Assembly (NCBI RefSeq): GCF_040712315.1
Contig: NC_134016.1
Location: 24,810,390-24,874,389, forward strand
Direction: 5' to 3'
Length of the DNA stretch: 64,000 nucleotides
Source: Castanea sativa
Lineage: Eukaryota > Streptophyta > Magnoliopsida > Fagales > Fagaceae
Every line of letters starts with the position of its first letter. Position 1 is the stretch's first letter. Below, one piece after another: positions 26,150 to 55,964 of the stretch. Under the pieces are notes generated by a model. The model worked only from the letters and a program-made list of their open reading frames with translations, searched no databases and was not told the origin of the DNA. Position numbers and translations under genes: made by a program.

Positions 26150-26150
26150 C

Positions 26151-27330: not shown

Positions 27331-27339
27331 TGAACTACA

Positions 27340-27815
27340 GGCCAAAATGGCCATTTACCACCTTTTTTCAAAATTTTTAGCCAAAAAACACTGTTTCGAA
27401 AATAATTGGTGATCTACCACTTTTTCCAGTACTCGAGCTTGGTGAGCTCGAGTACCGGATTTTCTAGTTCCACCGTGGCATGCCAGCATGGCATTTCGAA
27501 TTTAAAAAATGAGCTTAGTACTCGAGTTTCGTGAACTCGAGTACCGTATAGTGTGGTACCCGAGTCCACTAAACTCGGGTACCAATCTGGGTTGGCCGTA
27601 ATTTATTGAGTGTATCATGCCATTTGATACTCAAGTTTCGTGGACCCGGGTACTGTTAACATAGTACCCGAGTCCATGAAACTCGAGTATCAATCTAGGT
27701 TGGCCGCCACTTATTCAGCGTATCATGCCATTTGATACTCGAGCTTCGTGGACTCGGGTACTGTGTTAACAGTACCCGGGTCCACGAAGCTCGAGTATCA
27801 ATCTGTGTTGGCCTT
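27340..27815 (+). repeat. MULE left terminal inverted repeat
   Basis: About 90 bp of AT-rich end sequence (ACCACCTTTTTTCAAAATTT, AACACTGTTTCG, GATCTACCACTTTTT) is followed by several short palindromes of the form (G)TACTCGAG...CTCGAGTAC or the CCCGAG/CTCGGG variant. These are separated by conserved links such as CCACCGTGGCATGCCAGCAT and GGTTGGCC. The same elements occur in the same order, inverted, at the right end. Confidence 0.85.
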
Positions 27816-28048
27816 AATTTCTGGAGTGTTTTAATCATGCAGCTCGAATTTTTACGTCCATTTGCATGAGGTTCTCGCTTATTACACACTCTTAAAATCC
27901 ATTTGATTTTTAGTGAACATTTTTTAGTGCTCTTTATTTAGGAAAGAGTTAATGAGGTGCTGCCATCTCCAGGCTCCCGGGTTTGTACGGGAAGACATCA
28001 CATAATGGAGAGTGGAGAAGTGTAGGGGAAAATCTCTCCAAGTTGTGG

Positions 28049-28428
28049 TGTGTAAGCTAGCTTTAGGATCAATCTATGATATTTGGCATCGGAGAAATGC
28101 AATTATCCTTGGAAAGGGCATTTTGAAATATGAAGGCTCTCTCTCGAACAGAGTCATTGCAATACTTGGAGTTTCAGCTTGAAGATTTTGCAGTGCATTT
28201 CTTAAATGGGGTTTGTTTAGATTTTGGTTACAGGTAGGGTGGTTTTACAAAGGCTACCTCTTCCTTATGTGTGTTTTTTGTCCTTTACTGTGACATGCAA
28301 TTGTATAGCTGCTCTTTACTAGGACTAGGAGTTCTTTTGCTCTGTGAGTTGAGATAGTAACTGTACATTGTTTTTTAGTTTTTAGTAGTTTATAAATATA
28401 TTTCTCATTCATCTTTAAAAAAAAAGCA
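28049..28428 (+). pseudogene. LINE reverse-transcriptase C-terminal remnant
   Basis: About 28066-28180 translates as KLALGSIYDIWHRRNAII, resembling the zinc-binding C-terminal region of plant LINE reverse transcriptases (consensus like LAATVYHIWRERN). The upstream frame has stops. The segment ends near 28428 in an A-run after TTCTCATTCATCTTT, consistent with a LINE 3' end. It is a short 5'-truncated, dead copy nested in the MULE. Similarity is weak but patterned. Confidence 0.5.
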
Positions 28429-28759
28429 TCGAAAGGAACATCTAGAATGCAAAAAGCGATTTCAAAGATAAAACTAACATATGCATGGCTGATCCACATC
28501 AAGATTATCACATATCTTGCAATCTTCTTTGTCACACAATTCCTTTTGCCTAAAATGATGTGAATATAAAAATCCATGTAAGAAAAATCACCTGTCGTGG
28601 AAGATAATTGAAGTAAGAAGTGAAAGGATTCTGTTGTTTTTAAATGACCAAAACAAGGAGAATGAATAAAAATTGGTTCTTGTACAAGTCAGCTATCTTC
28701 TTGGTATGCAGAACAGAAGATTATATAAATATTACTAGCAAACCTTTTTGATACTCTAT

Positions 28760-31700
28760 TTTGTGATAATAATATGGTTCTTATACAAGTCAACTATCTT
28801 CTTGGTCTGTAGAGAAGTCAGGCTCTTCTGGCTTAAACAACAGGCATTTTGTATTCTTCCTCATTATGAAATTGCTTGTGAAGTGAAACATTGCGAGGAA
28901 CAGAATTTGGATCAACAATTGACTCTGACAAAGATTTTCTTCCAGAACCATGTTGTTCAATGGCCGATGCTAGATTTTGTCAGGCAACATCAGAGCTGCT
29001 GTTACTTTTCCAGTGGTAGATCTTTGTCCCTTGGATGATTCACTCTTTTCCATTAGTAGGACCTCAACCTGCAACAAAACAACAAATGGTTAGAAAATAA
29101 TCATTAGTCAATGATCGAATGCAAGTCAACAAATGCGCAAATACATGATTTCTATATCCAACCTGATTTGACGGCTCCTTTTTGGATCCCCCAAAGGCAA
29201 CAAGAAAATCCTTTTCCTTGTGCTGTACAAGAACTAGGCTGAAACCCTGAGAATACAACAATCTTTAGACAAATAATTTCATCTTGCCAAGAAGAATGCT
29301 ACTAAGACTACACACATCATTTCAAAATGATATCAAATAACAAATATCATAGCAACTATGGACTAATCACATCGGCTCAGGCAACCCATAAGGTCAAATG
29401 TCATCTTTATGCAGTATTCCCATAAGCTCAATAGTGAAAGTGAAAGCCATACAAAGGCTATGCACAATTTGAGATGGCATTAGCTTACCACGAGGGTGTG
29501 GCATCAATATGGACTTCCCGACGTAAAGCTTAAAGCCAGAATATTAGCTTTTAGTTCCAATGTTAAACTAACAGCTAAAATGGATGATAAGTTTTGACTA
29601 ATTTGAAAAAGTAATCAAAGAACCAATAGATAAATCCAAGCCTTCAAGGATAAAATAGAAAGTTCATGGATTTACGGCCATTAAAAAGTGTATTACTTTT
29701 ATAGAGATATCAAAAAAATAAATTGATGCATAAGTTTGGCACATCATATGGCATGAGGCTAGCATTTAAAAGATTTGCGATACTTGATGATGCAAAGAAC
29801 AAAATCTATATGACTCACCTTGTTGGTGGTGATGGAAGATGGCAGTGATGCAACAGCCACAGACCACTCAACCTTTAAAACATCAAAGACCACATGTCCT
29901 GGAATAATTATAAATAAAAAGTTCATAAATGAATGTTAAAAAACAATTAGTGAAACTAGAAAATTGCTCAAAGCTGCACTGCATTTGATCCACATCAGAA
30001 CTCAACTCCCAGGCTAGTGAGACATTGAAGATTGCTCAAAGCTGCAAAGCAGGACAGCTATGGACCTCACCACTTTAGTCTCAGCAAAACATATTGTGTA
30101 AGCTGCCTTAAGAGTTAAGAGTTAGGTTGTACATTATGTAACTATACATGGTATCCCCTATTTAGATCATTCTTTCTAACAAATTGCAATTGAACAAGGA
30201 AGGACACACAGATGTGATATACCTTATCTAAAGTGCTTTTTGACATTTTTGGTCCCCGATAAAAGCCTGGCATGGGTGTAGCTTTGAAGTTAAGACTCTG
30301 TCTTAACATTCTGATTTCTGCCTCTTTTTGCTCCTGTGTCAAGCATAGGGAGTTCAGACATGCCATTTGTGTAGACTGAATAAAGTAATCTTCTGATGAA
30401 CTAATGACGGTATTGTTTGAGAACATCTTTGAAACTGTATTATTCATTATGAGAAAGTGCAGCTATAGAACAAACTATGATGGAAAGGAAAGACATGCCC
30501 TTTTTAAAGAGAACTACTAAAGTAAGTGTACCTTTGATTTTGATTGAAGGCGTGTCTTCTCTACCTCTTTAGCATTAGACTTTTCCTCCAATTTCTTTAA
30601 AAACTAAAAATAACCAAATATGAGGTCAGTAGAAGACAACATTGAAACTTCATCAAGATATAGAAAGAAATTATGTGCTTGCATAATAAAGATTTTATTT
30701 GGGGGGAGGGGGGGATCATGTTGGTTTTAATGGGTACCTCCTTTCTTTTTTCTGCCCTTTCATCACTTTTCAAGCCAAAAGAAGAAGGGGCTGCCTTAAT
30801 ACTTCTTTTATCCACACCGCCTGCTTTAAGTGACCTACTCCAGCATAGCAATGCAATATTGAACTTTCCATAATAGTGGATCAAAGATTTCAAAATTCAA
30901 CTGAGCAGCCCTAATAATTTTATTAATGCAAAACAAATCAAGGAACTATAATTTGGTGATTTGCGTAACAGCAGGCTAAAGGCATTCAAAAGTATTCTTT
31001 CAGAATTGTTTCTTTATTGAATTGGAATGAATTGATGAATCTGATGAATTATTTTTCACATTATGCTTAGTTCATTTAGACCTTTGTTAAAAGGAAATTT
31101 ATGTACATTGATATGAACAAAAGCCGTGCCACACGTAGATCAATGTTGGACAGACAAGAAACAAAATTTTCATAGAAAGGAGATAATTAGAGTGAGAACA
31201 TTGAGATAATTGAATTAAAAGACAAAAATGGATAGAATTGAATCTCCTTGTTTTGGTGAGGAAGTGGCAGCACCTACAGTTAAGACTGGACAATCAATAT
31301 AATTGGACGCTAACAATCACATATAAAATATGAGAAACTCTTCATATCTCACCCCCTATTCCACTTGCACTACCCTCCTTGTTCCGTTTTTGTTTAGCTT
31401 AGATAAAATAATCGGTTCAAACCAAAAACTAATTAACTAGGACATAGTGATAGTAAACATATAGAACCAAACAGTGTTAAAATTCAAGTATCACATGGAC
31501 TTAAGCCAAAATAAACTACAATACATGATTACATAGCAGTATGCAATGGAAAATAGTGTGGAGCCAAAACATTACCCTCCATTCTCTTTTTGTGGAGTAA
31601 TAGAAGTGCAAACCATTGGTTCTGTCCCCTTTGTAGCCACCTATTCAAAAAAAGAAAGTTCCACAAATCTCAGGGGAGGACACCATTGGTTATATGCATT

Positions 31701-32111: not shown

Positions 32112-32725
32112 CTGAAAATACACGTGAAAAATAATAACATGTATATCATGCATTTATGGTATGAAACTAAATTAAAAATCTAATTTAATCAATTACTTTG
32201 ATGTTAAACATAAATAATCTGGTGTCCTCCCCCCCACCCCCCTCTCCTTTTTTTGAACAACTTAAATCTATTGGTGTTGCCACTTTGAATGTAAAGTTTT
32301 TAAGGAAAAAGGAACATTCCCTACCTGTACATCATCCAATAATCCATTCCCAGATTCACCACCAACCACTATCAAACTTAGCGTACCTAGTCCGCGAGAC
32401 CACCACTCGTCAAGGCCTCGTTCCGCTTAAGGCATGTTCTTCGGTTATGCCCCCCTTGGTCACACAACCCGCATTGCACCTTCCTCCCCCCCTCCTTCCA
32501 TGGTGTGGTTCTAGGCCGTTTCCCGCCCTCGTCCATCTCATTCCTGATTCATGTTGAGACAGGGCGACCTTTCTCTCGGATCAATTGGGGGTTAGGGAGG
32601 ACCCTTCGAGATTCTTTAGGATCCGACCATGATAATTTATCTTTCAACGCAGGGAAAATGGGAGCATAGCTCCGGAACAATGCATCCACGCTATAACATA
32701 GGTCAATGTACTGTTCTGCATCATG
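32112..32725. other. Spacer between cargo and transposase
   Basis: No gene recognised. The GC-rich stretch 32380-32640 has no motif I can name. It may be 3' flank of the transposase gene. Confidence 0.4.
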
Positions 32726-35374
32726 TCAATACCTAATACAAACTGCAATGACATGTGAACACGGTATCTTATACAATTTCCATTTCTGACATGTGCAAGT
32801 TCTTTGCAGCAGATTAACTCCATGTGTGTGATCCCCATGTCCAGCAGTCCCTGGATTATGCGGTGTATCTACTTGATATGATTGTTGTTGCGCGCTCAAT
32901 CTCGTCACCCTGTGATGCTCTACCTTCTCCTTATTTCTCATGAAGATATCCAAGGCATATTTACACCATTTTTTTTCCTGAATTCAACTGCTCTATGCTC
33001 TTATTGTGACGATCATCAAAATAAGCATTCAGTTTGAACCATGTGTATTTCACCATTGCTGTAATGGGTAGGCTACGAGCACCCTTTAGAAAACCATTAA
33101 AGCACTTAGAGACATTTGTAGTCATCACCCCATAACGGTAACCCTCGTCAAAAGTTAGAGCCCATTTCTCTTTCGGCACATCCTTCAGATATTGGTGCAC
33201 ATCTCGGTTCACATTCTCAATTAAATCGAATGTGGCATTGAACTTTCGCTCCTGGGTAGCACTTGCTGCCCTCCATACTAGATTCTTTAAAGTTTCATTG
33301 TTCCATCTAGTGTTCACGTTACTGCATAGATGACGAAGGCAGTAACGATGTTCTATCATGGGAGGCTGCAAATAGTCTCGATTAGTGTCTCTGAAGATAG
33401 CTTGTATCCCAGGGTGTCTGTCAGATATGACACACAGGTGTCTCCGGTCAGCAACACACCTTCTTATACAAGCCAAGAACCAACCCCAAGTCTCTGTGCT
33501 CTCGCTCTCGACAACGGCGAAGGCTAGTGGATAAATCTTATTATTAGCATCTGTCGCCATTGCAATCATCAATTTCCCTTTATATTTTCCATAGAGGTGG
33601 GTTGCATCAATACTAATCACAGGCCTACAGTTCTTGAACCCAATAATACATGGACGAAACGCCCAAAATACGGACTTGAATGTACAGGTTCCCTGTTCAT
33701 AATTATCGTTCACTAATAACTTATACTTTGTACCCGGACTTGCATCCTTAAGTCCTGCCAAAAAACGCGGCAACTCTGCATAAGACTCCTTAAAATCCCC
33801 GTATATATCTGCAACGGCCTTTTGTTTGGCATCCCAAACCTTGTATGTGAACCATAATGATTACGTTAGAAATGAATAGAAGTTAAATAATTATAGTTGA
33901 TGAAAACAAATCAAGACTTGTAAGGCTATAAGATGAAGATAATATTTCTTTCTCTTTATTCCTTTGTTCTTTTCTTTTTTTCAATTTCATTTTTCATAAC
34001 ATCAGGTATTCATGGGTTTTGGGAAAAAATATCATGCTTATACTTCCATGAAGACTGATGTCTCTACATTGTATTGAAAAAAGAATGCAAGTTAAAGAAT
34101 ACCTTGTAGTGAGATACTTCGTGTTTTAAGTCTGCCAAAGCAACGTGGCGTAAGTTCTTTATCTTATACGCGGGGTCTTCTCGCATATAGCGCTCAAGTA
34201 CGTATGCTAGGAACACCGAATCAATCATCCGACCATCATGAGCATTCTGAATTTTGTCGCATGTGTGGGGGCCCTTGCATTTTGCAATCTTCCAGACATT
34301 GTCTCCCTTGCAACAGATCGCACGGACTGACCATGGACAGGAATCATCCTCACAACTCACCATAAGCCTCTCTGAGTCCGAATGCCCAGTTTTGAACTTA
34401 AAATTCTCTCGCAGTGCGTACCAAGTCAACGCATGTCGCACCACAAATTTAGTCGTGAAGACCATTCCTTTCATTAGCTACTCCCCAGGCGTCCAACTTG
34501 ATACTTCCTCTTGCATAATCGGTGATGGATCAAACATATTATCCCAAGTGTTTTTGGTGAACCATTCCGGTGTAGGATCGGGACCAGGGCATGTGTCTCT
34601 ATTCTCTTCTACAACCACATCCTCGATATGATCAACATCCTCGTGTTCACCCATGGTATCTAGGAGCTCCTCGAAGTCATCCCTAGTAACATCAATATGG
34701 GTTGCATCGTCACCAAGTCCGTGATCACCTTCACTTTCAGATGTGCCCCCATGCAGCTCATCATGAGATAAATGCTCTCCTGCATGCACTTCCTAGGGCC
34801 CTTACTCCTCCTCAATGTGTGAAGCATGGGGAAATGTTTACCACGGTTTAGTACCATACCCATCTCCTGTGTTTTTTGCACACCCTTGATAAGACTGTAA
34901 TGGTATTGAGTCAATGTGCTCATCTACAGTTCCATCCAAAACAGTATGTTGTGAACCCTCTCCAACCTCTACTATGGTGGTCTCAACAGTGACATAGAGA
35001 TCCGAACCAACAAATCCTTTCACCACCATTTGCTCAACAATTTCCCACATCATCTTCACTTGGGCGGCACTCAATAATTGTAGTGAATTGTAGAAAAAAT
35101 GGGTGTCTAGAACCCGTTGAGGTGCTCGATACACAATGGAAATGTTATGCCTAGAGTGATCTAACCTCATCACCTTCAATATTCTTTGTTGCAATTTCAT
35201 AAGGCCTATCCCACGCTTCACCCTAACACAATTTTGCTTTTGGTTCGAGCCTTGGTATGACAACCCATGCAAGTCATGATAATACATCTCTCCATCGTAG
35301 TACACATAGAAAAAGTGAAAATCCATCACCGACATGTTATTAACAATATAAAAGTTGTCATAATGTATAACCAC
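32726..35374 (-). pseudogene. mudrA-like: MUDRA-type MULE transposase, broken
   Basis: Coding order: an N-terminal domain (35374-34838, VMDFHFFYVYYDGEMYYHDL); an acidic linker (34789-34480); a MuDR-type DNA-binding zinc domain (34474-34103, FVVRHALTWYALRENFKFK, CEDDSCPWSVRAICC, THTCDK-like HTCDK); an intron with GT-AG ends (33840-34102); the MULE catalytic domain (33839-32961, PVISIDATHLYGKYKG, CVISDRHPGIQAIFRD, HRYCLRHLCSN); and a SWIM zinc finger (CTCQKWKLYKIPCSHVIAVC, about 32735-32795). Breaks: stops near 34838-34790, a TAG at 34478-34480, and a frameshift at an A-run (about 32968-32975) just before the SWIM part, where the family sequence continues in another frame. It would act in the nucleus on the element ends. 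As read, no full protein can be made. Confidence 0.9.
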
Positions 35375-36296
35375 TTACATAAATTTGGCGTATGATAAAA
35401 ACAATTTATATTCAAACTCAATCATAGACATATAAGCAATTGAATAATTGAATTTATAAAAACAATTAATAGTATATCGAGGTCTGCGTTCTAGTTGACT
35501 CAATTTATAAAATTTCTCTCATACAAAAAATTATAAAAAAATTTTAGTGTTTTGACATAATTAAGAACCATAATCAAACGAACAATTCAAATACAATCAT
35601 ATTTACATTTAAAAAAAAATTAGGTTAAAACAACATTGTGTTATGAGTTATTATTACCATATAACTAAGGCAATGGACTACCACACAAACTGACATCATG
35701 TTCATGTCCAACAACCGTTGGAGGTACTGCCATATGACTGTAGCAAAATAGACTATGCATTAATCTTAAGGATCCGGTTTACTAGTGTTGGTGTGCATTG
35801 GCTATGGTTAAGTTTTTTTTTTTTGATACATATATAGTTTGCTCTCCTTATTCTTCTTTTGTTTCTCTTTTATACTATTTCAGACTTGTAGCTAGTATAT
35901 AACATGTAAAACGTATGTATAAAAAACTTAGAAGAAAAAAATAATAATAATAACAGTAAAGTTCTTTTAAAATTGATAAAAATATATAATATAATATAGT
36001 AAAACACTAAAATGTGTAAATCGTTATTTGATTCGATCTATTTTTAATGCATTTAATTTCAAGCATTTTTTTGAGGGGAACATTTATTAATTTCAAGCAT
36101 TGATAAAAATAATAAAATAAAAAAGTAATTTTTTAGCCATTAATTATACTTAATGTATTATAATTTAACTTTCAAATATAATTCCATAGGCAAGTTAAAA
36201 ACTAATGATATTTTAGAAAATAATACTATATTTTTGGATTTTAACGTTGAGTTATTAAGCAATTTAAAATATGAATATAATACTTATAAACAAGGA

Positions 36297-36341
<45 letters not shown>

Positions 36342-36688
36342 CTTGTTTTTCATTTGGCCTGCCAAAGGCAAATTCCAAGCTTGGCCACTACTTAAGTTTC
36401 TTAATGACTAGTTGCTATTACAATCATGTTACTCCTTATCATTAAGGACAGAAAGTTGTGTGCAAGTTGTTGATTCTGATGTTGTGTTCCACTGTAACTA
36501 TAACTGCATGACATTTCTCTTTCGTGCAACAAAGCCCTCCTAGTTTCTCCCAAGTTTTCTTGTAAGTTTTTTCAGTACCCCAAATATGTCTAATATGTCA
36601 CCTTCGCTTCTATACATAATAAAAAAAATCTTAATATGCATGTTCTCTATTTGCTATCATATGGTCAACCTTGATTATTAGCATTTTC

Positions 36689-36755
<67 letters not shown>

Positions 36756-37360
36756 GATACATTACGGTTTAAAATCTATATGCCTTATTCCATGAGTTTA
36801 TTCTTTACTATTAGGCCAACACTTTTATTATAGACATGGTTAAGTTAGATTAAAATAAATTATATAGAATGTAAGTTTATTAAAAGTAGAAACCTAGCTG
36901 ACTCGTCACATGCGACCGATTCTATTTAATATGTCGTACATCTATAATTGACTAGAAAAATTTGAAATTAATGTTTGTTTTTGTTGGGGATATGATAGGG
37001 TTCAAAATTTATGGTGTCTTACACAGTAATTGCATGCCTTTCACTAAGTTTTTATATTTTGGTGTAGATAAAATCCAGACGTAAAAAATTTCTTATTTGA
37101 GTATAAAATACTATATTAGTTGAGTTAATTAAAACACCAATTGAAACTATTCTAACATACTACATTATTGCTCCCTACATTATTGGAGATTAAATTTTTT
37201 TAAAAAAATATGCAGCTGATGCAACATAAAAAGAAATCTATTTTATTAACAAGTTACAATAGAGCATTTTGTAGAAATTTTAGATTACTTTTGAATTTTA
37301 TGTTCGTGAAGACAAGCTCTGAAACTTCAATTCAAATGTGTGAATATCAGCAGTTGTACA
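35375..37360. other. AT-rich DNA with microsatellites
   Basis: No gene recognised. An (AT)n tract lies at about 36301-36338 and a long (TTA)n tract at about 36690-36754. The frames at 37210-37431 and 37364-37762 have no recognisable motif. The latter includes a tandem 23-bp duplication (about 37381-37428). Confidence 0.5.
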
Positions 37361-37727
37361 TAGTTAATATTGAAAAACTAGGGAGTACAAAAACACCTCA
37401 TGCATGGAGTACAAAAACACCTCATGCATAAAAATCTCATACGAAGACATACAAACACAATTTGAAACTAAGCACTTAACTATTACCTCTGTGTTCTGGT
37501 CACGGCAGGGTTGACCCAAAGGATAAATGGACAGCACATTGGTCTTGGATGGAGAACTGACATACAAACTCAAGGACTTGCAGATGGTGACCCAACTACC
37601 AGTAGCTTCTGCGTCCACATAGCGTTCTAACTCGTCACGTGGAGTTGGGAAGATAGGTACGCGAGTAGAGTTCAAAAGATCCTTAACTAAAAATAGATGA
37701 AAGGTGATGGGGTCTGTTTTGTGAAGA

Positions 37728-38145
37728 GGTACTCGAGTTCCGTGAAATCGAGTACCATTCATTATGCATTAATCGTAGTGGTTGCCGCCAGGAAAGTCGG
37801 TGCGTGCAATAAGTATGGAACTTATTACTCGAGTTTAAAGGACTCGAGTATTGTGTTAGAAGTACCCGAGTCCAGTAAACTCGAGTATGGCTCGGGTATA
37901 ATATAGTAAATCATACAGATTAGTACTCGAGCTTACAAGACTCGAGTACTGTTAGAAGTACCCGAGTCCAGTAAGCTCGAGTATGGCTCGGGTAATCTGT
38001 ACTTACTCTACTCGAGTACTGTGTTCTAGTACCCGAGTCCAGTATGCTCGAGTATGGCTCGGGTATAACATATAGATTAGTACTCGAGTTTGTCGGACTC
38101 GAGTACTGTGTTACGGTACTCGAGTTCATTAAACTCGAGTACTAA
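37728..38145. repeat. Internal CTCGAG palindrome array
   Basis: At least eight TACTCGAG / CTCGAGTA / ACCCGAG motifs form a chain of short hairpins (for example TACTCGAGCTTACAAGACTCGAGTAC) with links such as GTATGGCTCGGGTA. They are of the same kind as those in both MULE terminal repeats, but without the GGCCAAA...ACCACC outer end. It directly abuts the plastid-derived ndhF segment. Confidence 0.85.
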
Positions 38146-38189
38146 TCTGTTTTTTTAGTTTCATCCAAGGTAATACTGTTGTATTTTTA

Positions 38190-39208
38190 TTTTTCCCCTC
38201 TTTACCCCATAGAGACATTGAATAAAACGAGTTATTTGTTTTTCCATTGTAATTTTGAAAATTAACATTTAAATATCCTTCAAAAGTAAGTAAATAAATA
38301 CGAAACATATAAAATGCAGTTAATCCTGCTGTAGAACAAGCAATTATTGCAAAAATCGGTGAATACAACCAAATATAATTAAGAATTTCATCTTTGGACC
38401 AAAAACAGGCAAGGGGTGGAATACCGCAAAGAGACAGTATACCTAATAAAAAAGCAGTTTTTGTGATTGGTACATGTTTTGTTAAACCCCCCATAAGGAC
38501 CATATTCTGACTTTTATCTGGAGAATATCCAACAACCGCTTCCATTGAGTGGATGATTGATCCGGATCCTAAAAACAACAATGCTTTTGAATAAGCATGA
38601 GTAATCAAATGAAATAAAGCGGATCGATAAGACCCAATACCTAGAGCTAACATCATATAACCCAATTGAGACATTGTAGAATAGGCTAAACCTCTCTTAA
38701 TATCTTTTTGAGCAAGGGCTAAAGTAGCTCCTAATAGTAATGTTATTATCCCTATCAAAGCTATTATGTTCATTATGTAAGGTACAACTATGAAAAGAGG
38801 AAGAAGCCGAGCTACAAGAAAAATCCCTGCTGCTACCATAGTAGCAGCATGTATAAGAGCCGAAATAGGAGTAGGTCCTTCCATAGCATCGGGTAACCAT
38901 ACATGAAGGGGAAATTGGGCGGATTTGGCAATTGCACCAGAAAATAATAAAAGAGCACACAAAGTAACAAATAAAAAATTAACTTCATTAGTAGAAATCA
39001 ATCTATTGACTATTTCAAACAAACCCCGAAATTCGAAACTGCCCGTTATCCAATAAAAACCTAAAATTCCTAATAATAAACCAAAATCTCCTACACGATT
39101 AGTGACAAACGCTTTTTGACAAGCATTCCCAGCGATAGGTCGTGTGAACCAAAAACCTATTAATAGATAAGAGCATACTCCAACTAATTCCCAAAAAATA
39201 TAAATTTG
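38190..39208 (-). pseudogene. ndhF: Nuclear copy of plastid ndhF (middle part)
   Basis: The minus strand translates with no stop over about 340 codons as NdhF, the NADH-dehydrogenase-like complex subunit 5 of the thylakoid membrane. Landmarks: [94 protein letters not shown] and [20 protein letters not shown]. Intact NdhF is about 740 residues, so both ends are missing; it stops matching after [11 protein letters not shown]. Its plastid codon use and transmembrane pattern differ from its neighbours. The open frame suggests recent transfer or weak decay. It is not expected to function in the nucleus. Confidence 0.95.
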
Positions 39209-39339
39209 TATAAAATACCCTCGAGGTTTTTTTGTTTTTTTTTAGTACTCTCAAGTTTATAGAAGTATAATGGGAGGGCAATCAAATAATAATATCTGGG
39301 AAATTCTCTAATTTATCAATGGTCTAGATTGTAGATATC

Positions 39340-41190: not shown

Positions 41191-41199
41191 ACAACATTT

Positions 41200-42890: not shown

Positions 42891-42894
42891 TACC

Positions 42895-44015: not shown

Positions 44016-45235
44016 TTAAGGCACACCGAATTTGGAGAGAGCTGATTGGAACAAAGCTGAGAATGCCTGGGATGCACTTTGATCATCAGCTTTGATCTTT
44101 ATTTGTGCTTTGGCCGATGATGTGTTAATTATACTCTACAAGAAATGTGGAAAATTCCTCTGCCTTTTGTGCAAAGAAGAAGAACTTAAAATTAGGGGAT
44201 TGTCCACCTGATGCAATGCAGTGGATGGAATGGCCTTGCATGTGCCGGAGGAGGGCCTCAGATGTCGTCAATGCTGCGATTCCTTGAGGACTAATAGATA
44301 TTCCTGCACCAGATTAAATAATATGATCTATGAGAACTGTTGATAATACAAAAGCTGGTAGAAATACCTCTAGAGGCCAAAAGTGACATATTGGTAGGCC
44401 AGAGGTGAATAGGTATGGTTCTTGTTTTCAATTCCTATTGTTTCCCAAGGATATAGAATCAAACCACAACTCAGACTAATATAGAAGCACTTTATAGAGG
44501 AGTTGTGCTACCAATGTAAAAATCACTAACACAACATTTGTTACAAAGTGAAAAAGGAGCATCAATAAAAACAAACAGAGAATTATCAAAGTAATGCCAT
44601 AATTTAGGAGTAAACCTGTGATAATGATATTGGAAGTTGGCGCCATTTTTGCTGAAAAGTGCCTGGATCTAGAACAGCTTTTGAATTAAGCTTCAAAAGA
44701 GGAGGTGAAGGAGCAGGTGCAGGTGAAGGGATTTCTGGTAGACCTAATCCAAGGAGATCATCAATTGCCAAGCTAGATTGTGGAGCAAGCCCTGGTACAC
44801 TGGGGTTTAAAATGGTCAACTCTGATAATGCCTGTGATGCAGCAGATACAGCTGAACCATCATATGAAGGAGCACTATATGCAGCTCCATTGTTACTAGG
44901 ACCTCTAATTTCCTCCTTCTCTGAAGTACTTAAAAGTAGATCCTTGTCATTTGCCTCAACTCTGTGAGCTGGAACAACAGTACCTGCTGCAGATTCTGCC
45001 CCAATAGATAGATTTCCAAGTTCGTCTGAAACTCAAAAGGCCCCCGGTGCTCCTTATCAGTAAACATGTAGGAAGGCTGCAAAATTATGTGGATCAGTCA
45101 ATTTGCACCTCACCCTAATCCATTGTAGACAAGCTAAATGTGATCACTGCCAATAAAGAGCACTTACATATACAGTGGGAAGGGGTGATCTTTTGGAATT
45201 AAGGTATCTCAATTGATAATGAAGTAAATAATGTT

Positions 45236-45355
45236 GCCAATGAGCTCTAGCTCAACTGGCACCTCCTCCCCTTGCAAGTGTTTGGTGGAGGGTAAGTTTG
45301 TGGGTTCAACACCCACCGGGTGCTTGTGTGACTCACCAATGAAATAAATAAAAAT
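45236..45355 (+). mobile_element. tRNA-derived SINE
   Basis: It has A-box-like TAGCTCAACTGGCACC (45248-45263) and B-box-like GGGTTCAACACCC (45302-45314) at tRNA-like spacing, then an A-rich tail (AATAAATAAAAA). It is nested in an intron of the AP-4 beta fragment. Confidence 0.7.
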
Positions 45356-45847
45356 CATGTCAATGTGTTCCAATATTTTTTGCTTGGCACTTTTTAACTG
45401 ATAATGAAGCAGAATGAACCAGTGACATCACTGTTAACCCCATGTTTAAAGGGAGGAGATGCCATTGTTGTGTCCCATAAATGTGGAATATGAAACAAAT
45501 TATTGTGAGAAGATTATCCACTGCAGTTACCTTCTGGTACACAACAGAAAAACTGTTAAATTCGTCAAATATGCGATCTTTGATTTCACTGCTCTGAGTA
45601 TCAGCAAAGACAGAAACAGCTTGTTTTGGAGGGTTCACCACACGTTCTGCTACTGAGACATTGTGTTGCAAAAGCCTGTAGTAGAACAAGGCTCTATCAT
45701 GAACATCCTGCAATCAACTAAAACTTTTAATTTAACATTTTATACAAACTAATCAAAAACTTAGTTAAGTACTGATAACATTTAAGTAAAATTTTATCAT
45801 CTCAAAAAGAAAAAGTCTTAAATATTGTGAGAAGATTATCTCCTTAA

Positions 45848-45952
45848 AAATAATAATAATAATACCAATGATGATTATGATAATGGTGATAATGATAATG
45901 ACATTAGTGATGATGATGATAGTACTAATCATGATAACAATAACAATACAGA
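45848..45952. repeat. Trinucleotide/degenerate low-complexity tract
   Basis: AAT, GAT and ATG triplets in runs, with interruptions. Confidence 0.85.
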
Positions 45953-46278
45953 TCAACAAGACCTGGTGGAAATCAGCAAGACCTGCAGCCAGTGCAGCTC
46001 CCAAGGCTTTTTGAGTCTCAGGTGGCCTCTTGAAAAAACACTTCATTACTGCTGTGAGAAGATGTAAACGAACCTGAGCAATGTGATAGCCCATCACTAA
46101 ACAAGTAAATGAAGTAATCAAAAGCACAACACTATAAATTCCATCTTTACAATTAGTCAGACAAGAAATTATCTAAGATTTTTTTATTTGCCAAGCATTT
46201 TGTCAAAACCCAATTTAAATATCTTTATCCAATACCCATAGTGCTCATCAAATATCAAGATGATTGGAGATTAAAAAT

Positions 46279-46445
46279 CATGGTTTTAAAAATCGGACTG
46301 GGGCAAAAACCATTTTTGCCTCCGGTTCCTGGTTCAGCCTGGTTTTGGCCACTTTTCACTTTTTTGAGGGTTTTTACTGGACTGTACTGCTGCCCGGTTC
46401 CCAGTTGAACCAATCAGACCGGCCAGTCCAGTTTCTAAAATCATG
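46279..46445. mobile_element. Short MITE with CATGGTTTTAAAAATCGG ends
   Basis: The left end CATGGTTTTAAAAATCGGAC and the reverse-complemented right end CATGATTTTAGAAACTGGAC form an imperfect inverted repeat around a GC-richer body (CCGGTTCC, CCGGCC). The target duplication is unclear. Confidence 0.5.
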
Positions 46446-46605
46446 TTAGAAATCATCTCATCTATAAAGTATAGATGAGATGATTTTTAACATGATTTTT
46501 ATGGATTTACTTTCAGATGGCGAGAACATCATCTCATCTGATGTCATTTACTTTCAAATCTATAAAAATCATCTCATAAAATAATTTTAGGGATTTGAAA
46601 GTAAA
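46446..46605. repeat. Fold-back repeat pair
   Basis: AAATCATCTCATCTATA, then three bases, then its reverse complement gives a 17-bp-arm hairpin at about 46450-46486. Further on, GGATTTACTTTCAGATG and GGATTTGAAAGTAAAG form a second, looser inverted pair ending near 46605. No coding. Confidence 0.6.
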
Positions 46606-47205
46606 GTAGGACATTAGGTTGGCCCACATTGCATCATATTTCATGAATAGAATAAGATCATCATATCCTTTTGTGAATGGATGAAGGTTAATAGGTAGTC
46701 AGCTAGACACCAATAGAAAGGCTAAACACTGTGCATATAAGAATCTATCAGCCCATAGGTAGTCAGATGACTTCAATCTTATTTTCTTGAGACAGCATCA
46801 TATACATATAATTTTATGTTCTCCATTGTATCAAAAGGTTTACATTTAAATGCAATACCAGCATCAATGGAGTAAAAGTGAATATCAACTTTACACACCA
46901 GGAGAACAGAAACATCAAGCTTGCATTACAAGAAGAATGCAGAGATTTGCGTACTCTACAATACTTTGTAAATAAGGATGTTCTTCATTTTTTTTTCTTT
47001 AGGAACTTTGAATATTTTTTAAATTGATTAAACCGTCCCCCTAGTCTTATACAATGTCTTTCTTCTATTGTTCAATGTCACTCATACTAGGACTTTTCAT
47101 ATCAGTTTAGACTAGAGAAGAACTGCTAGAGCTGCAAGAATCACTGCTTAGAATTTAATTTGATGGTTTCTTTCAATTGTACATAGACCAGTTACATTTA
47201 GAAAT
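46606..47205. other. Spacer between AP-4 beta and beta-galactosidase fragments
   Basis: Nothing recognised. Confidence 0.45.
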
Positions 47206-47210
47206 TTATA

Positions 47211-49220
47211 ACATGTTACATACCTCTAGATTAGTGCCAAGTTGCACTTGAATTGGATCTGAGCTGATCAAATGTTCTTCACACAGCTTTATTGCCTTGT
47301 GCAAATCACGTAGGTGACTCCACTCTGGTTGTCTAATATAACCTAAATACAGTATTTCAGCCATTAAAAAATAAATAAATGCATAAAACCTACATATAGT
47401 ACACTTCACAAGATGAACATCTTCAGGTACCTGTAAGGTAGTTCTGAACTTAGCCATTGCAAAAGGTTGTCAACTGAAATTCACATTGCCTCTAAAGGTT
47501 GTACACATGAAGTGTCATAGAAATTGCATTGCTTAAAAATGGGAGGCATATTCTTTACAGTCAAGGCCATAACATTACATTACTCAGTTGGATTGTCATT
47601 TATAAGATTCTCGACTACTTGGTAGTTCTGCTAAAGATTAAAAACTATTCTAAGGAAAAAACATTAAAATGCAGCCCAACCAGTTGATTTACCGGTTGAA
47701 CGATCTGCCAATTTTGAAAGCGCATAAAATTTTAAATTTCAGGCGCTGCAAAAGGTACCATATTCATCTATTGGAGCATCATAATCATAGCTTGTTGCTA
47801 CCAGAGGGCCTCCAGCCGTTCGTCCAAAGTTGGTCCCACCAAAACACTGCAAGGAAAAATCAGCAGAAAATCATAATGATGTTGATGAAGTTTTTACAAA
47901 TTTGAAATAGAGAAGTTGTAGCTTACCATATAATAATTTTGAAAAGTGCCTCCTGTTTCAAAAAACCGTGCAACAGCAAAAGCAAGGTACTGAGAGCAGG
48001 TCGATAAGGATTTGCATTGCCAAATGCAAGGAACCTATAACACTAGATAGGATACTTAACACTATCTCAGATGAATCAAAAGCTAGAAATCTCGGCTACA
48101 TTAATACATAAACAAACAAGCCAATTTAACTAAAGTCCATTACCATCCACTGTAATTCTCTATCCACATTTTAGGTTTGGAAGGGGAATTTGGGGAAAAT
48201 CGATCACAATAAAATCCATTGCATGTGTTTATCTGCAGGTAAATTTTAGTTAGAGAAGAATTGAACACAAATATTGGAAAACAAGAACATCAAGGAGAAG
48301 AAAACTTGATGCATTGTATGTTCAAGGATAATACATGTTAAAATGATGAGCAACAGCCAGCAGCTTTAGTCCATGACAAATTAATTTAATCACTTACAAT
48401 TGGATCAGGTGCATCGTGTTGTGCGCACATCACCCAAGGTACAGTCGTGTTCAAATTAACAGCAGTTTCTGCTGCCCATTTGACATATAACTCTCCACCA
48501 ACTCCATATGACCCCTCAACATTTCCATATTCATTCTCAACCTGTCACAGCACATATGAGATGTGAAATTAAAATAATAATAATAATAAATATCCCTAAA
48601 ACAATTTTTTTTTTTAAATTCTGACAATTAATTATCATAAACATGAACTGGAATGCTTAAGATGACAAATCATGCAAGCAATTGTGCAGCTAAGCGGAAA
48701 TGAAGCAGTTGTGCAGCTTAGTGAAACTGGGTAGATCAAACCAACTTATCTCTTAAAAATGCAGCAGGCAATATGCAACTTTAAAGCTTACACAAATTTA
48801 TGAATCTATTAATAGGTGATCTCTCAAGTATCCAAACTCTCTCAATTCCAGATATGTTATTAAGATAGAATATATATCCTTACTTTCTCTATAAAAAAAA
48901 TCCCATTTTTACAACTATGTTCATTCTTGTAGTTTAAGCTGGTATATTACATTGACTTAACAAGTCGCTGTCAGCCATGTTGAAACTTTGTCAATTCAAA
49001 CAAATAATAGATTATCCTATAATCTTTTATTCAAAACTAGAAGCACTGTTTCCATCAGAAATTGAAAAGCTCCCTCAAAATCAAGCAGTTAAGGTTTTAT
49101 CACTTATTTAAATGACAAGTGCATTTATAACCTATTTCATGGAAAGGGATTACAGTTCACATACACAACTGAATTTAAAGATTCTTACCAGGCGCTGCCT
49201 GTTAATTAATTTGCTTATAT
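47211..49220 (-). pseudogene. GH35 beta-galactosidase gene fragment (catalytic region)
   Basis: Exons in descending order: about 48405-48543 (VENEYGNVEGSYGVGGELYV, WVMCAQHDAPDPI), about 48150-48237 ([30 protein letters not shown]), about 47935-48040 (LAFAVARFFETGGTFQNYYM), about 47755-47850 ([29 protein letters not shown]) and about 47224-47341 (YIRQPEWSHLRDLHKAIKLC). VENEYG contains the acid/base Glu, and IENYSGW aligns with the family's nucleophile segment (normally TENW/TENYSGW). This is the catalytic barrel of a plant cell-wall beta-galactosidase. N-terminal signal and early exons are not seen. A short piece at about 49190-49240 is only partly family-like. At about 48000 the piece PYRPALS precedes an apparent frame change. 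Further exons lie at 42895-43200. Confidence 0.9.
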
Positions 49221-49755
49221 CCATAGGTATGTCAACTGCAAAAAAGAAAAAAAAAAAATAGGAACTTGAGTAGGAGACAGGTGTTAACTGTTAACAGCAC
49301 GAAGACGTACTTTAAAAAAAAAATAATAATGCTGTCCTATTCTCTCCCAAATGCATTTTCAACCTTCCATATTCTTGGTCACTTACCCCCATCTTCTGCT
49401 ACTCTGCCGTTGAACTAACTGAAACAACAACAACAACAAGAGAAATCTTAGAGGGAACAAAAAATTTAAAAATTAAAAATTAAAAAAAGTTTAGACACAA
49501 TTTTTCATAACCACAATCCACCATTGAGATAATAATGTAACTATGGCTCGCAGATTATGAAATAGAAGATTCAAGTAGATCATAAACAACAATATTCAAG
49601 GTTGGATTCTAAAACCTTTGACTAGTCTCACCTTTTGGTTCTACCGATGCGAATTGACCATCGAAAATCATCCCCGTTTTCTTCTCCTCACTGGTTCCTT
49701 GACTGGCCTCACCTTGCCTAAAAAGAACACAAGCAAATACTAAGATTCAAATCAT

Positions 49756-52340
49756 TTAAGCATAAAGAGATGCATATGTAATCGGTATAAGAGGGGGAGT
49801 ACCATGTCCAGTCCCACAGTCAGGAGGATGTGTCCGTGTCCGTTGCGGCCTTCGCGGCCGATCCTCAATGTGTGAAGCCCCTGGTGGGGGGGTGGGTATC
49901 TCTGTCTGGATGGCACCAAGGATGGGTAGCCCCCGATCCTCATTGTGTGAAGCCTCTGGTGAGGGGGTGGGACACACAGGTGTCTGGATGGCACCAGGGG
50001 TGGGTAGCCCAGGGATGGGCATGAATCTCATCTCATCTCTACCACATACATTTGCGGGGATAGTGTCAGTAGTCGGTGGGGGAGAGGATGTGGGTGGGTA
50101 GGTATCATCGCGAACGATGGATGGGGACCGACATGTCTCACCATGGGCAAAGGAATGGGATGGACCCGCATCATCATGTGCCATGGAGCTCATGTCATAA
50201 CTAGTGTCCAAACACATCTCATCTGATGTCTGACTTGCCTCCTCCATGGTGTGGTCATGCACGGGTGTGTGATGCCCACCAGCTGTGTGATTGCGACTAG
50301 TTGTAGGACGCCGACTAGATGTATGATGCTGACTAGATTGACGACCTCTATGCCCTTGACGTCCACCTGCTTGCCGACCACGCCCTACAGCCGGTTCACT
50401 TGCGTTGCCCACAGTGCGTGCATCGTCCAAGGTCAATCGACTGATCTCTTCAATAGATTGCAAGGCATTAATACATTCGGTGTAGATCTCAGACCCTGGT
50501 TCGAACTTTGCCATAATCCTCAACTGTGATTCAACCTGTCACAAGTATACATGAGTAGTGTTAGGATTTGGAACTAAACTATGCAAAGCGAGGTACATTT
50601 ATAACAAAACAGTCTTTGTAAACTTACCAAAGTGTCCCAGTACGAGGTCTCTTTTGTAATATGCCGAACAGTGATGGGATGATACCACACCATATACTCA
50701 TCATTGTAGCTCATTACCCCATGAAAGGGCGGTACTTCGGCAATTGTGGCGTGTGCAGCCCATCTAGCAATATGAGTGGCATGTTCTTGAACCCAGTTTT
50801 TTTCGTGCTTGCCCTGGAGTGTTATCTTGTGAAGTTCAATTGAAGTATCAACATTGTCCAATACGCCTTGCTTCATCCCAAACTGTCGAAGAACACGTTC
50901 GGGGTGATGGCCTTCAACCACCCAAAAATGTATGAGCGGCACAATAGACCTTCATATGTGTTGGCCTGCCGTACAATATGCGGGCAGCGAACCCAAATAA
51001 TCTCTATATGGCTCCCAGACAATCTACAATGATCCAACAAATGCAAATAACCATATTAACTATATAATTAGAAAAAAATGTGTAACGAATGTGACCAATA
51101 CATGCCAAAGTGGTTCCCACTCGTAAGGCACGATACCTGATTTGGCCGGAGCGAAGCAAGCAACACACGATAGGCGCGTAAGACGTGCATTGGATGGTCA
51201 GTTGTTATCTTAGCCCCTTTCCATCTACCAAACAACACAGACATAACCTTCATATTAGTTACTTACATAATTCCCATGCGAACAAAATTAATGCGGAAAT
51301 GTAAAACGATAACTAAGATAAAGATCCTACATACCTGATAGCAAGTGGACTTGGGGGCAGTGCCTGGTGTGGATGCCTCATCATAGGACAAATGTGTGGA
51401 AACCTCGCCCACGCCCACAACTGCACTAATAGCAGTGCACCACCAATTTGCTTGACTGTCTTCTCTGATGCCTTACAGAGGTATCTATATAGCCAACTTA
51501 GTGTTGCACTACCCCAACTATAATTATTTCCATTGCTGATTGGATTGAAAATTTTTAGATACATGATTGAAAGCTGTTCACCAGACTTGTCCATAAACAA
51601 TATACTACCCAACATTTAGAGTATGTAAAACTGAGCATACTGCTGCACACGCACCTAAATGGCGTCAGTAGGAAGAGGGTTGCAAAACTGCTCCTCCAAC
51701 CATTTGGCTTTTATCCTCGGCCCTTCCAACACTGCAGTGTTCTTTTTCGTACCCACTGGTCTGTCCGGTGGAGGGGGGGTACCTAGCAATTCGATGCAAA
51801 AGTCACGCCAGTTGTCCATATGGGTAAATCCCACCACCGGCAAGCCATGTACAAGTACCCCCATTATGACCTCTATGTCTTGTAGCGTGATGGTCATCTC
51901 ACCGTGGGCAAGTGGAATGAGTGCGTCTCTAGCCGCCGTCTCTCCACTAAGGCTGTGAACAGTGCATGGTCAAGGTCCATATATGGGACCCAAAGTAGCC
52001 CATCTAACCCCGCATCTGTGATATAAGTGGCAATCTATGAATCTAACCCACCATCAAACAGACTTTTATCTCGGTGACGACAAGTCAGTACACCTGGCAC
52101 TTCCTGCAAACAAAGTAGCTTAGTATTAATAATAGCATTCACTAACCACGTAATAATTACACTTCAAACATAAATGCCCAAAATCTTTCTACTGCATATA
52201 TTGACTACAATTTTGGACACAAGTGCATACCTTGCCTACCAAAGGAGCATCCCAAAGCAAACTTGAACGGTGCATAAGTTGCCTCGTCAAGACAGTCCCT
52301 ATAGAGGGTCCTGCTCAGTATGGGTCCATATCTGGCATAA
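49756..52340 (-). pseudogene. Plant mobile domain (PMD) / MAIN-like gene, broken
   Basis: Descending order: about 52237-52340 (MHRSSLLWDAPLVGK), about 51900-52105 (TYITDAGLDGLLWVPYMDLD, ALVERRRLETHSFHLP), 51897-51655 (MTITLQDIEVIMGVLVHGLP, MDNWRDFC), 51615-51313 (YSWGSATLSWLYRYLCKAS, IGGALLLVQLWAWARFPHI), 51253-51068 (RWKGAKITTDHPMHVLRAYR), 50942-50574 (HHPERVLRQFGMKQG) and a 255-codon Ser/Pro/His-rich tail ending at 49756. This is the plant-mobile-domain fold of MAIN/MAIL1-type nuclear proteins, a domain also common inside transposons. Breaks: a stop after GGLDS, and a one-base slip between FHLP and MTITLQD. It sits at the opposite end of the MULE from the transposase, on the same strand, as a second element-borne gene would. 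Confidence 0.85.
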
Positions 52341-54190
52341 ATTAAAGGTGATTAATGGCTCATTAGCATATTCATCAAATACCCATAAGCATTCAGTTTA
52401 ATACATACACATATATATATACACACACAAAGAAAGGAGATACATTTTATGGCCTCATTCCTAAGCCACTTGCATTAGATATTAAAATGAACGAATACAA
52501 ATATATTTTTCTTTTCTCAAGTTCAACAAGTCTACACACAACTACCAATTTAATAAATAAAGAAACATAATTCAACACCCCCTTCACAACCCCACCACCA
52601 CCATTAAAATCAGTCCTACCAGTTTGGTTCAACAAGGATCCCATCAACCAACCACACTTATCCCAAAACTCTAATAAGGAAACTGTTCAAAGTATTTTGT
52701 TTTCCCAAATCTCTAAAGCAACCAAATCAAACAAAGCATTACAAAGCCAAACTAGCATTACAAAGCCAAAAGCATTACAAAACCATAAATAGGAAAAAAT
52801 AGTAGAGAATCTGAGATGCGTTACAGCAACCTCTTACAATTTTTCTTCAACCACACAACAATCACCTATGACCTATCAAGTAATCCAGCCACATCTTTCA
52901 TGGTCAAACTTAAAAAAACGTAAAAATCTAAGACTATACTCAAAAACGTAAAAACCCACCTAATAAAAACGTAATTTTTAAAACCCGCATAAAGTCTTCA
53001 ACTTAAAATTTTGTAATCTTAAACAGAAGTGTAATTTAAAAACTTATGGAAGTGTAAACCAGAAAGAAACATCAAGCAATTTTTTAAAACATATTATTAT
53101 AATCTAAACCAACCCTAATCCAAAAACATATCACAAAAAAAATGTAAAAGATAAGAAATCAATTAGAAAAGGGATTAAAGCTTCTCACATTAAACAGCCA
53201 GACCTTACCTACATAACCAGGTTTTTTTAGCTTTTCTTTCTTTATTTATTTGTTTTTATTTAAACAAGACATCAATCCAGTGGTCTCCTACATAAAAATT
53301 ACAAGAAATTTTTTTTATAATATTAGATGCAATGCAAGGCTCAAAAAAATTTCCAATGCCCCTGATTAAAAATCCTTTCATTTGCTTCAAAAAAGGCCAA
53401 AGATAAACTGCTGATCAGGCCCTTCAGTGTATGACTACCGGGCTTCTAGAGGAACTAAAAGAACAAAAGAAGAACAAGCTTCACAAACACAAATTGCATG
53501 CTCAAAATTGTGTTCAGATAATCTTTTTTTGATAATTGGGTAGTTGGGGGAGGGCGGATTTGGATTTGAACCTTGGATGTTTGCATTTGAAACACCAAGA
53601 GGTGCCAACCAATTGAGCTACAAGGATCTTTGCATGTGTTCAAATATTCAGAGCTAACAAATATTTATCTTTTGTAGCCCATGGTGCACAAAACTAGTTC
53701 TTTTTTTTATTATTATTTTTTTTAAAGTAAAACTAGTTCAAAGATTGTTAGATTGTTGATTGCATATCCAGGATAGTAGAAAATGAAATGCAAATATAAA
53801 ACTAAATACAAATAGAACCCACACAATCAATCACCATGAAAGCTAGCATGATGGTCTAAAATCATCAAGCTTTAATATAAATATTTAGAAGAGCATATAG
53901 ACCATATCAATATTTGTTCCTGTTGTTTTAGTTGCGGCTTTACTAATAACAGTAGGAGTTAAAACTTAAAATCAAGAGTTTTTTAATTATTCAAACACAA
54001 CTTTTCCTATCAAATATTGAAAAATTCTTCTGGTCATTTTAAGTCCAACCACAAAAGCTAAAAACCTATGCATGTCATTTGCAAGATATTCAATTTAAAT
54101 CACAGTTTGTGGAATTTACATTTGTAAAACACCAGCCATCATCAAAGATGTTAGATTACATGATTAAATTCACAATTTCCTAACTTAAAC
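52341..54190. other. AT-rich spacer near the right end of the MULE
   Basis: No gene recognised. It contains several short direct repeats (GCATTACAAAGCCAAA at about 52736-52772) and a minus-strand SINE (53522-53634). Confidence 0.45.
53522..53634 (-). mobile_element. tRNA-derived SINE
   Basis: Read on the minus strand, it has A-box-like TAGCTCAATTGGTTGGC and B-box-like GGTTCAAATCC, then a T/A-rich end (poly-T on the plus strand at 53524-53530). Box spacing is tRNA-like. Confidence 0.75.
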
Positions 54191-54276
54191 CTTTTGGGAA
54201 ATTTTGTAATCTTAAACAAAAGTGTAATTTAAAAACTCATGGAAAGAAAGAAAAAAAATACCAAAATGTTAATCTT

Positions 54277-54500
54277 TGAGTGCGAGAACGCCGACGAGAG
54301 GAGAGTTCTTGTTTTCCGCCGCCAATGAGATGTGCTTGTCTCCGATGGAGTGAGTGCGAGGTCGCCAGCGAGAGGACAAATTTCTGCCGCCGATGAAATG
54401 GGCTTGTCTCCGGTGGAGTGAGTGCGAGGTCGCCAGCGAGAGGAGAGATTTCTACCGCCGATGAAATGGGCTTGTCTCCAATGGAGTAAGGGTTTGGGGT
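54277..54500. repeat. GC-rich subterminal tandem repeat of the MULE
   Basis: TGAGTGCGAG starts units at 54277, 54351 and 54419 (74- and 68-bp offsets). Each unit contains (G)CGCCAGCGAGAGGA and GCCGCCGATGAAATGGGCTTGTCTCC or variants. GC content is well above the surroundings. It lies just inside the right terminal repeat and upstream of the PMD gene on its coding strand. Confidence 0.85.
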
Positions 54501-54589
54501 TTGTACGTTTGGGTGTGAAGAGTGAGAGCGTGTTCAAGTATGTGAGTGGTGAATGAGAAATGAGAGACAAAATTTGAACTTTCTGTGGT

Positions 54590-54949
54590 TTTAGTGAGCA
54601 ATACTCGAGTTTTATGGACTAAGGTACTGTGTTAACAGTACTCGAGTCCAGGAAACTCGAGTATAATGGGCATGATAAGATGGTGGCCAACCCAGAATGG
54701 TACCCGAGTTTACTGGACTCGGGTACCACAGTATACAGTACTCGAGTCCAGAAAACTCGAGTACTAAGTGCTTTTTTTTTTTTTTAATCCGAGATGCCAT
54801 GCTGGCATGCCACGGTGGAACTACAAAATCCGATACTCGAGTTTGGCGAGCTCGAGTACTTGAAAAAGTGGTAGATCACCCATTATTTCCGAAACAGTGT
54901 TTTTTGGCTAAAAAATTTGAAAAAAGGTGGTATTTGGCCGATTTGGCCC
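54590..54949 (-). repeat. MULE right terminal inverted repeat
   Basis: Read on the minus strand it repeats the left end: GGGCCAAATCGGCC, ACCACCTTTTTTC, AACACTGTTTCG, GATCTACCACTTTTTC, a CTCGAG palindrome, CCACCGTGGCATGCCAGCAT, then further CTCGAG / CCCGAG palindromes. It is followed by the target duplication at 54950-54958. Confidence 0.87.
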
Positions 54950-55094
54950 TGAACTACATAGTCCATAAAATTTTTACAAAATGCCAATTGCCAAGACAAT
55001 GGTTTTGTTTCTTCAAAAAGGAATTTGGAATTTACAATAAAAAAAAAATAGAGTAATTTACTTATTTTATGATTATGTTCTTGAAGAAGCATTA

Positions 55095-55961: not shown

Positions 55962-55964
55962 TTA

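Follow-up and report, generated by a model that had tools for sequence, protein, structure and literature searches.

MuDR-type Mutator-like elements (MULEs) of plants have a transposase with a MULE domain, long terminal inverted repeats (TIRs), and target-site duplications of about 9-10 bp. An element with these features, referred to here as WIN, lies in a 64,000-nucleotide stretch of the Castanea sativa genome (the window; C4:24810390-24874389) and belongs to a mobile family of giant MULEs, with copies at sites that have unrelated flanks and their own duplications. WIN has a MULE domain, long TIRs, and a 10-bp duplication, where 8-11 bp is expected, while a functional transposase is lacking. 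The family departs from other MuDR-type MULEs in its size of 20-27.6 kb in several copies, in its partner gene encoding a plant mobile domain (PMD), and in its foldback-like ends. Like foldback elements, WIN has long inverted ends of modular build that form extensive secondary structure, with imperfect palindromes at the very termini. The FARE elements of Arabidopsis are said to have strong secondary structure, palindromic termini, modular inverted ends, and duplications of the 9-bp class, and to reach 16.7 kb. Tm1 of root-knot nematodes likewise has modular inverted ends and 9-bp-class duplications, together with a Mutator-type transposase (PMC3169594). The WIN family resembles FARE and Tm1 in structure; it is larger, and its cargo comes from plastid DNA and host genes.

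Pack-MULEs likewise enclose fragments of host genes within their MULE ends. They use transposase supplied in trans, whereas the Castanea giants, WIN among them, hold sequences of the transposase MURA and of PMD. The Pack-MULEs of Jiang 2004 included none over 7 kb and were mostly 1-2 kb long (PMC6431247), so that 20 kb or more is well above the size cited for early Pack-MULEs. KI-MULEs, or Ulp1 MULEs, are MULEs with a captured extra gene, but of one recurrent kind (PMC2528002), in contrast to the many different fragments found here. In grasses and Amborella, PMD is coupled to the MULE transposase by fusion (PMC5418596), whereas in these Fagaceae elements the two lie apart with a cargo slot between them. 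Coding MULEs with nested insertions have been described from a search range of 2-30 kb (PMC3903597; for further background see PMC13317346), and the uptake of host genes by MULEs is still described as not understood (PMC3310237). No description of the giant Castanea family was found in the titles and abstract openings of mainly non-subscription literature. The kind of element (TIR-MULE/foldback) is known; new are the giant size, the slot loading, the plastid cargo, and the one-way orientation of the cargo.

In the reading that we favor, with a probability of roughly 80%, WIN is a single dead MuDR-type MULE with foldback-like ends that belongs to a giant, slot-loading Castanea family and transposed with part of its cargo. 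A preliminary description of this DNA had delimited the element by a perfect 9-bp duplication. The 9-mer TGAACTACA does occur exactly twice within the window, at 27331 and 54950, but the match extends one base outward, and the 10-mer CTGAACTACA is present in the window only at 27330-27339 and 54949-54958 (the left and right target-site duplications, both read on the plus strand). Because the 10-bp reading makes both inverted ends begin symmetrically with GGCCAAA, the duplication is best read as 10 bp, a length that also fits several sister copies and gives an element of 27,609 bp excluding the duplications. The chance of such a match at one place, calculated from base composition, is 6e-6 for the 9-mer and 1e-6 for the 10-mer, and 9-bp matches were seen in 86 of 2,000,000 random position pairs in this repeat-rich window. 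The left TIR (27340-27813, plus strand) pairs over 27340-27690 with the right TIR (54601-54948, minus strand), and is extended by more 108-bp units of 26-bp palindromes. In the pairing part, identity reaches 300 of 357 columns, or 87.7% when gaps are left out. The long inverted ends with an ordered series of motifs noted previously are thereby confirmed far past 30 bp, and the motifs are the 26-bp palindromes, of which both ends are foldback-like arrays with a GGCC(5)GGCC imperfect palindrome at the very terminus. In single-strand folding against shuffled sequences, z was -17.3 for the left end and -9.5 for the right end (54596-54949 folded), with 0 of 100 shuffles as good in either case. These features of the sequence show a single insertion at one 10-bp target.

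Sister copies were sought in 716 Mb of genome sequence on 13 contigs with the outer 181 bp of the left TIR. Forty of 586 candidate TIR places were scored, which gave 40 long matches, two of them WIN's own ends, and 5 short matches. Inverted ends that lay on one contig were paired by eye and ten pairs fetched, and in four more regions the partner ends were identified with blast, for a total of 15 loci with paired ends including WIN (codes such as C8a, C1a, and C9b denote sister loci on named contigs). Other copies with the same ends, which had been suggested as a search target, do exist in this genome. Perfect duplications of at least 9 bp are found at nine of the 15 loci (WIN, C10, C12, C5a, C9a, C3x, C11x, C1x, and C5x), and duplications of 9/10 bp, read by eye from the flanks, at two more: C8a (AGACTACAGC/ACACTACAGC) and C9b (CATTTTGCCC/CATTTTTCCC). 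The other four, C8b, C1a, C1b (where the script missed the right end), and C8c, were recorded as having no duplication or an unresolved one. At a sixteenth locus, C7, the 20 kb fetched contained neither a partner end nor any match to MURA, PMD, or the cargo. The sister copies support the boundaries of WIN: many blast alignments start at 27339-27341 on the left, with others reaching up to 50 bp outward (27290-27334), and on the right they stop between 54947 and 54976 under permissive scoring. The two 290-bp flanks of WIN match no sister flank, and give two short matches elsewhere in the fetched C1x region. Searches with the TIR pattern in general and viral contig collections returned 0 and 0 matches, which is uninformative for a plant.

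MURA and PMD occur together, collinear and equally oriented, in five elements, namely WIN (27.6 kb), C1a (25.3 kb), C8c (21.8 kb), C8a (21.6 kb), and C9b (20.0 kb). Three of these giants have duplications (10/10 in WIN, 9/10 in each of C8a and C9b). The preliminary description had called 27.6 kb exceptional; WIN is the largest element found, but its length is in line with that of its family. Partial copies also occur, with PMD plus only a 249-bp piece of the MURA end in C8b (13.1 kb), PMD without a MURA match in C5x and C1x, and MURA without a PMD match in C11x (11.0 kb, with a perfect 10-bp duplication). WIN and C8a are 95% identical over 27340-30032, 96% in the MURA region, and 94% over 48716-54962. 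An assembly artefact that joined unrelated pieces might be considered for an element known from assembled sequence, with no reads seen, yet both ends and the order of the interior recur in sister copies on other contigs, and we regard such an artefact as extremely improbable.

All genes and identified cargo of WIN lie on the minus strand. The MURA transposase pseudogene (32399-35326) contains a DNA-binding domain (PF03108, 3e-12), the MULE domain (PF10551, 9e-20), and a SWIM finger recognized by homology. These domains, with the TIRs and the one target duplication, bear out the earlier identification of a Mutator-like element with a MUDRA transposase remnant. The five best homologs are all from Fagaceae and are 81-91% identical over 43-87% of the query, with scores of up to 1234 bits. 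The WIN sequence has five in-frame stops over 823 residues (four in the first exon part), one frameshift between adjoining aligned pieces, and a Lys at what we take to be the third catalytic residue; of 19 aligned relatives, 2 are gapped in that column and the other 17 all have Glu. Judged from its reading frame, the WIN transposase is dead, and given the stops and the frameshift WIN could move only with transposase provided in trans. The decayed PMD gene (PF10536; 49759-52329, minus strand) comprises three open reading frames (ORFs), one of them just below the Pfam cut-off, and 49759-50538 is likely its C-terminal part. In the Lithocarpus gene models P0023 and P0024, PMD precedes MURA within one protein, and PMD therefore belongs to the element family. 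The Quercus suber gene model P0021 reads the strand opposite PMD (50149-50526, plus strand), joined to MURA.

The family layout is TIR, cargo slot 1, MURA, palindrome array, cargo slot 2, PMD, and TIR, with the order and direction of MURA and PMD seen in five copies and the array matched in four. The internal array of WIN (37730-38142) consists of the same 26-bp palindrome units as the ends and folds with a z of -13.8 against shuffled sequences (0 of 100 as good). It could be the relic of inner ends if WIN were a composite, in which the outer ends mobilized two neighboring family members along with the intervening host DNA. For other DNA transposons, acquisition of this type has been suggested (PMC8903248), and some MULEs have extra internal TIRs (PMC3310237). 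However, the array occupies the matching place between MURA and PMD in C8a, C9b, and C1a, so that it was inherited, and it has no terminal TIR segment. The cargo, moreover, is a series of different gene fragments with no one evident host stretch. A composite origin of WIN is accordingly improbable.

Eight coding remnants were found in WIN, counting MURA and PMD (seven identified by tools and one assigned provisionally), close to the nine or so proposed beforehand. Slot 1, downstream of MURA, holds a fragment of a gene with a TPX2 domain (30145-30896, minus strand, as for all that follow; Pfam 1e-10, or 5.8e-15 with its two pieces joined). In slot 2, between MURA and PMD, the first fragment is from chloroplast ndhF (38171-39214; Pfam 1e-92), where residues 144-490 form one open frame. 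It is identical at 337 of 348 residues to P0243, a long frame of ndhF origin in the annotation of a 77.6-Mb Castanea mollissima contig, which is 97% like the WIN fragment. The putative PDAT fragment at 39653-40435, presumably the C-terminus of that protein, has no support in PDB, Pfam, or NCBIfam; its region contains a tandem duplication (39471-40318, 98%). A fragment of the proteasome subunit PSMD13/RPN9 follows (40733-41251; Pfam 1e-32, PDB 1.6e-66). The 3' part of a gene for beta-adaptin-like protein A (44019-46073), covering residues about 501-846, to the end of the protein, aligns with C. mollissima P0124 and keeps its introns where checked. The C. sativa beta-adaptin A protein P0123 is encoded on a contig with the length of C10. 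The last is a beta-galactosidase (BGAL, GH35) fragment (47209-48544; Pfam 1.3e-6, PDB 3.6e-6). A joint protein search gave no sign of fused cargo proteins among the best 120 of 1409 matches, all of which were beta-adaptin-type by domains.

Parts of this cargo recur in sister elements. PDAT-like and PSMD13 fragments occupy one and the same position in WIN, C8a, and C9b, which lie on three contigs, and this set has therefore been carried in elements with their own duplications. C1a repeats the WIN order of array, ndhF edge, PSMD13, and a piece of beta-adaptin, is 92-99% identical to WIN over the pieces beyond the array, and has the appearance of a deleted version. As cargo is common to loci whose flanks are unrelated, elements at different loci have held host and plastid sequences. 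The slots are also filled differently from copy to copy. Slot 1 is occupied by TPX2 in WIN, by a Kelch gene in C8a, by a kinase in C8c, and by an XH-domain gene in C1a and C11x (with the same reading-frame text; three XH members are among the sense ORFs described below). Slot 2, with ndhF, PDAT-like, PSMD13, beta-adaptin, and BGAL in WIN, holds RPB1 in C8c (4e-40) and an RFC1-like sequence in C1a, the latter a weak match (1.8e-4, below Pfam's own cut-off).

Where the copies differ at the slots, they do so by replacement with sharp edges and not by clean insertion. C8a has 682 other bp in place of the ndhF segment at 38194-39283, where C1a shares part of the ndhF version, and 2,056 other bp in place of the beta-adaptin/BGAL segment at 41226-48716; C8a and C9b have a common slot version that is different from WIN's. 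C1a shares the WIN version in part past both breakpoints (39073-39263, 41226-41347, which is 121 bp, and two later pieces). Because C1a shares WIN sequence beyond 41226, the older version at the second block is either that of WIN or that of C8a, and the filling of C8a there may itself be cargo. The pattern of replacement suggests repair-type capture. With different fillings of the same slots bounded by sharp edges, the order of capture and the repair signature become readable once donors are known.

This pattern bears on the possibility that a MULE of the ordinary kind inserted here and grew afterwards, at this site, through nested insertions and rearrangement, never having moved at 27.6 kb. 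Such a history would fit the few changes in the cargo and the fact that BGAL and TPX2 were seen only in WIN. It does not explain why PDAT with PSMD13, and ndhF with PSMD13 and beta-adaptin, recur at other loci in the same order, or why the slots differ by replacement, and we consider it unlikely. A nested LTR (long terminal repeat) retrotransposon inside WIN, which in-place enlargement might involve, was looked for among the best 120 self-matches; no LTR-like pair was present, which also counts against that history. A scan for other TIRs with duplications (20 bp with at most 3 mismatches and a perfect 8-10-bp repeat) gave, among the matches listed, only AT repeats and units of the WIN ends and array; it was too strict to list WIN itself, and its reversed-sequence control was uninformative by symmetry. 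A short ORF at 28006-28440, which resembles a long interspersed nuclear element (LINE) by eye, has no Pfam match and is followed by poly-A; no target duplication was found for a LINE insertion near 28.4 kb.

Changes private to WIN number 10 of 717 residues in MURA, plus 2 stops in columns where the relatives agree, and the same count for 14 MURA relatives gives 0 to 4%, with one at 15%. Beta-adaptin has two Leu-to-Phe changes relative to P0124 in about 328 aligned residues (counted manually, exon edges excluded), and ndhF has 11 differences in 348 from the other chestnut copy, a number that includes the changes of both copies. The three counts are of similar orders, and the private changes in MURA (10/717) and beta-adaptin (~2/328) give no sign that the cargo is much younger, with the caveat that stops are frequent in WIN MURA.

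Several observations weigh against transposition of WIN as a loaded member of a mobile family. At C8c the duplication is 8/10 bp by eye, and C1a lacks a target duplication and is damaged at one end. No intact or active copy was found in the family, with in-frame stops in all four transposases counted (5, 6, 2, and 2). An empty site or a donor locus was not found either, with no search aimed at them. The two TIRs of WIN differ by 12% without gaps, far more than the cargo has changed; the ends probably already differed before insertion, but as an alternative account the cargo may have entered WIN afterwards. C8a and C9b, and not WIN, may carry the replacement at the 41226 breakpoint. Finally, BGAL and TPX2 have no match in the 14 sister loci (ten searched by blastn; five of those and four more by tblastn). 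The proposal that the whole element moved as one unit is accordingly retained for parts of the cargo, namely PDAT with PSMD13 in three elements and ndhF with PSMD13 and beta-adaptin in two, and not for the full 27.6-kb set, since BGAL and TPX2 were seen only in WIN. The family indicates that a plant element of the cut-and-paste type, at least 20 kb in size, can carry several gene fragments to new loci.

In the mechanism that we propose for this slot-loading family, the slots would take up pieces of host-gene and plastid DNA when a gap left by excision or a break was repaired from an unrelated template by template switching, and loaded copies would then transpose with part of their cargo. WIN itself was probably moved in trans by MURA from better copies. 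Either sense cargo would be better tolerated or capture would be directional, which could account for the orientation of the cargo. To survey that orientation, every stop-to-stop ORF with 60 or more residues from 12 slot regions in seven elements was compared with Pfam at an E-value of 1e-3. The 111 ORFs along the MURA/PMD direction matched 21 Pfam families, one of them PMD itself, whereas the 77 opposite ORFs had zero matches at that threshold. As distinct cargo genes, ndhF, PSMD13, TPX2, beta-adaptin, RPB1, kinase, Kelch, XH, OST-HTH-associated, RFC1-like, CAF1 (among the sense ORFs, without assignment to a particular element), and BGAL are all in the sense direction (12/12). BGAL was added from a separate Pfam match, its ORF being shorter than the 60-residue set. 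Resemblances to PDAT, ALA-type ATPase, SINA-like RING, dynamin, and NUP98 in the cargo, which we take to be provisional and for which Pfam gave nothing at 1e-3, were excluded from the count. The two-sided probability of 12/12 is 0.0005 if the genes are independent, a value that is indicative, as XH and OST-HTH could share a capture, several fragments are possibly from one event, and the regions were set after some cargo had been seen. Pfam-recognized cargo in these regions runs in the MURA/PMD direction, and any Fagaceae genome could serve to test this rule. More tentatively, and with less than even confidence, we suggest that giant MULEs capture host DNA, including plastid DNA, directionally and almost only in the direction of the transposase, either because capture is coupled to transcription or to nascent RNA while gaps are repaired, or because antisense cargo is purged, as its pairing with host mRNA would lead to silencing of the element.

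Helitrons, too, pick up pieces of genes, for the most part in a single direction, and the cargo block, with several gene fragments in one orientation, might on that account be a Helitron nested in the MULE. A strict scan found no 3' hairpin with CTRR-T on either strand of 35400-50600 (weak evidence, with none in 20 shuffles either), and the copies differ by replacement at the slots. We judge a nested Helitron to be very improbable.

Ends are multiplied at C1x and C5x, and the lengths of these elements are hence ambiguous. At L037-L039 (C5:67985971-68008332), three tandem left TIRs each follow the same TTGTATAGCAG flank, and ORFs that resemble those of retrotransposons by eye lie between them. 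L034-L036 (C1:70568983-70598982) is a family member with PMD in which the left end occurs three times, each time after ACTTTCTTC; the end and the duplication appear to have been multiplied together.

The window holds further repeats outside WIN. A Copia-type LTR retrotransposon at 9707-14944 has LTRs that are 95% identical and CTAGG on both sides. A probable gypsy-type element at 16002-26612, with LTR-like ends 91% identical and gag and RNase H-like ORFs, includes a 450-bp tandem pair at 22558-23467, and a large minisatellite with a 105-bp unit is located at 19119-20230. A third repeat family has three copies, at 2169-3087, 55116-55980, and 62620-63536, with matching pieces about 72-84% alike. 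One of the three is in the opposite orientation, one begins ~160 bp outside WIN, and the family contains a CTACAGTAC...GTACTGTAG hairpin.

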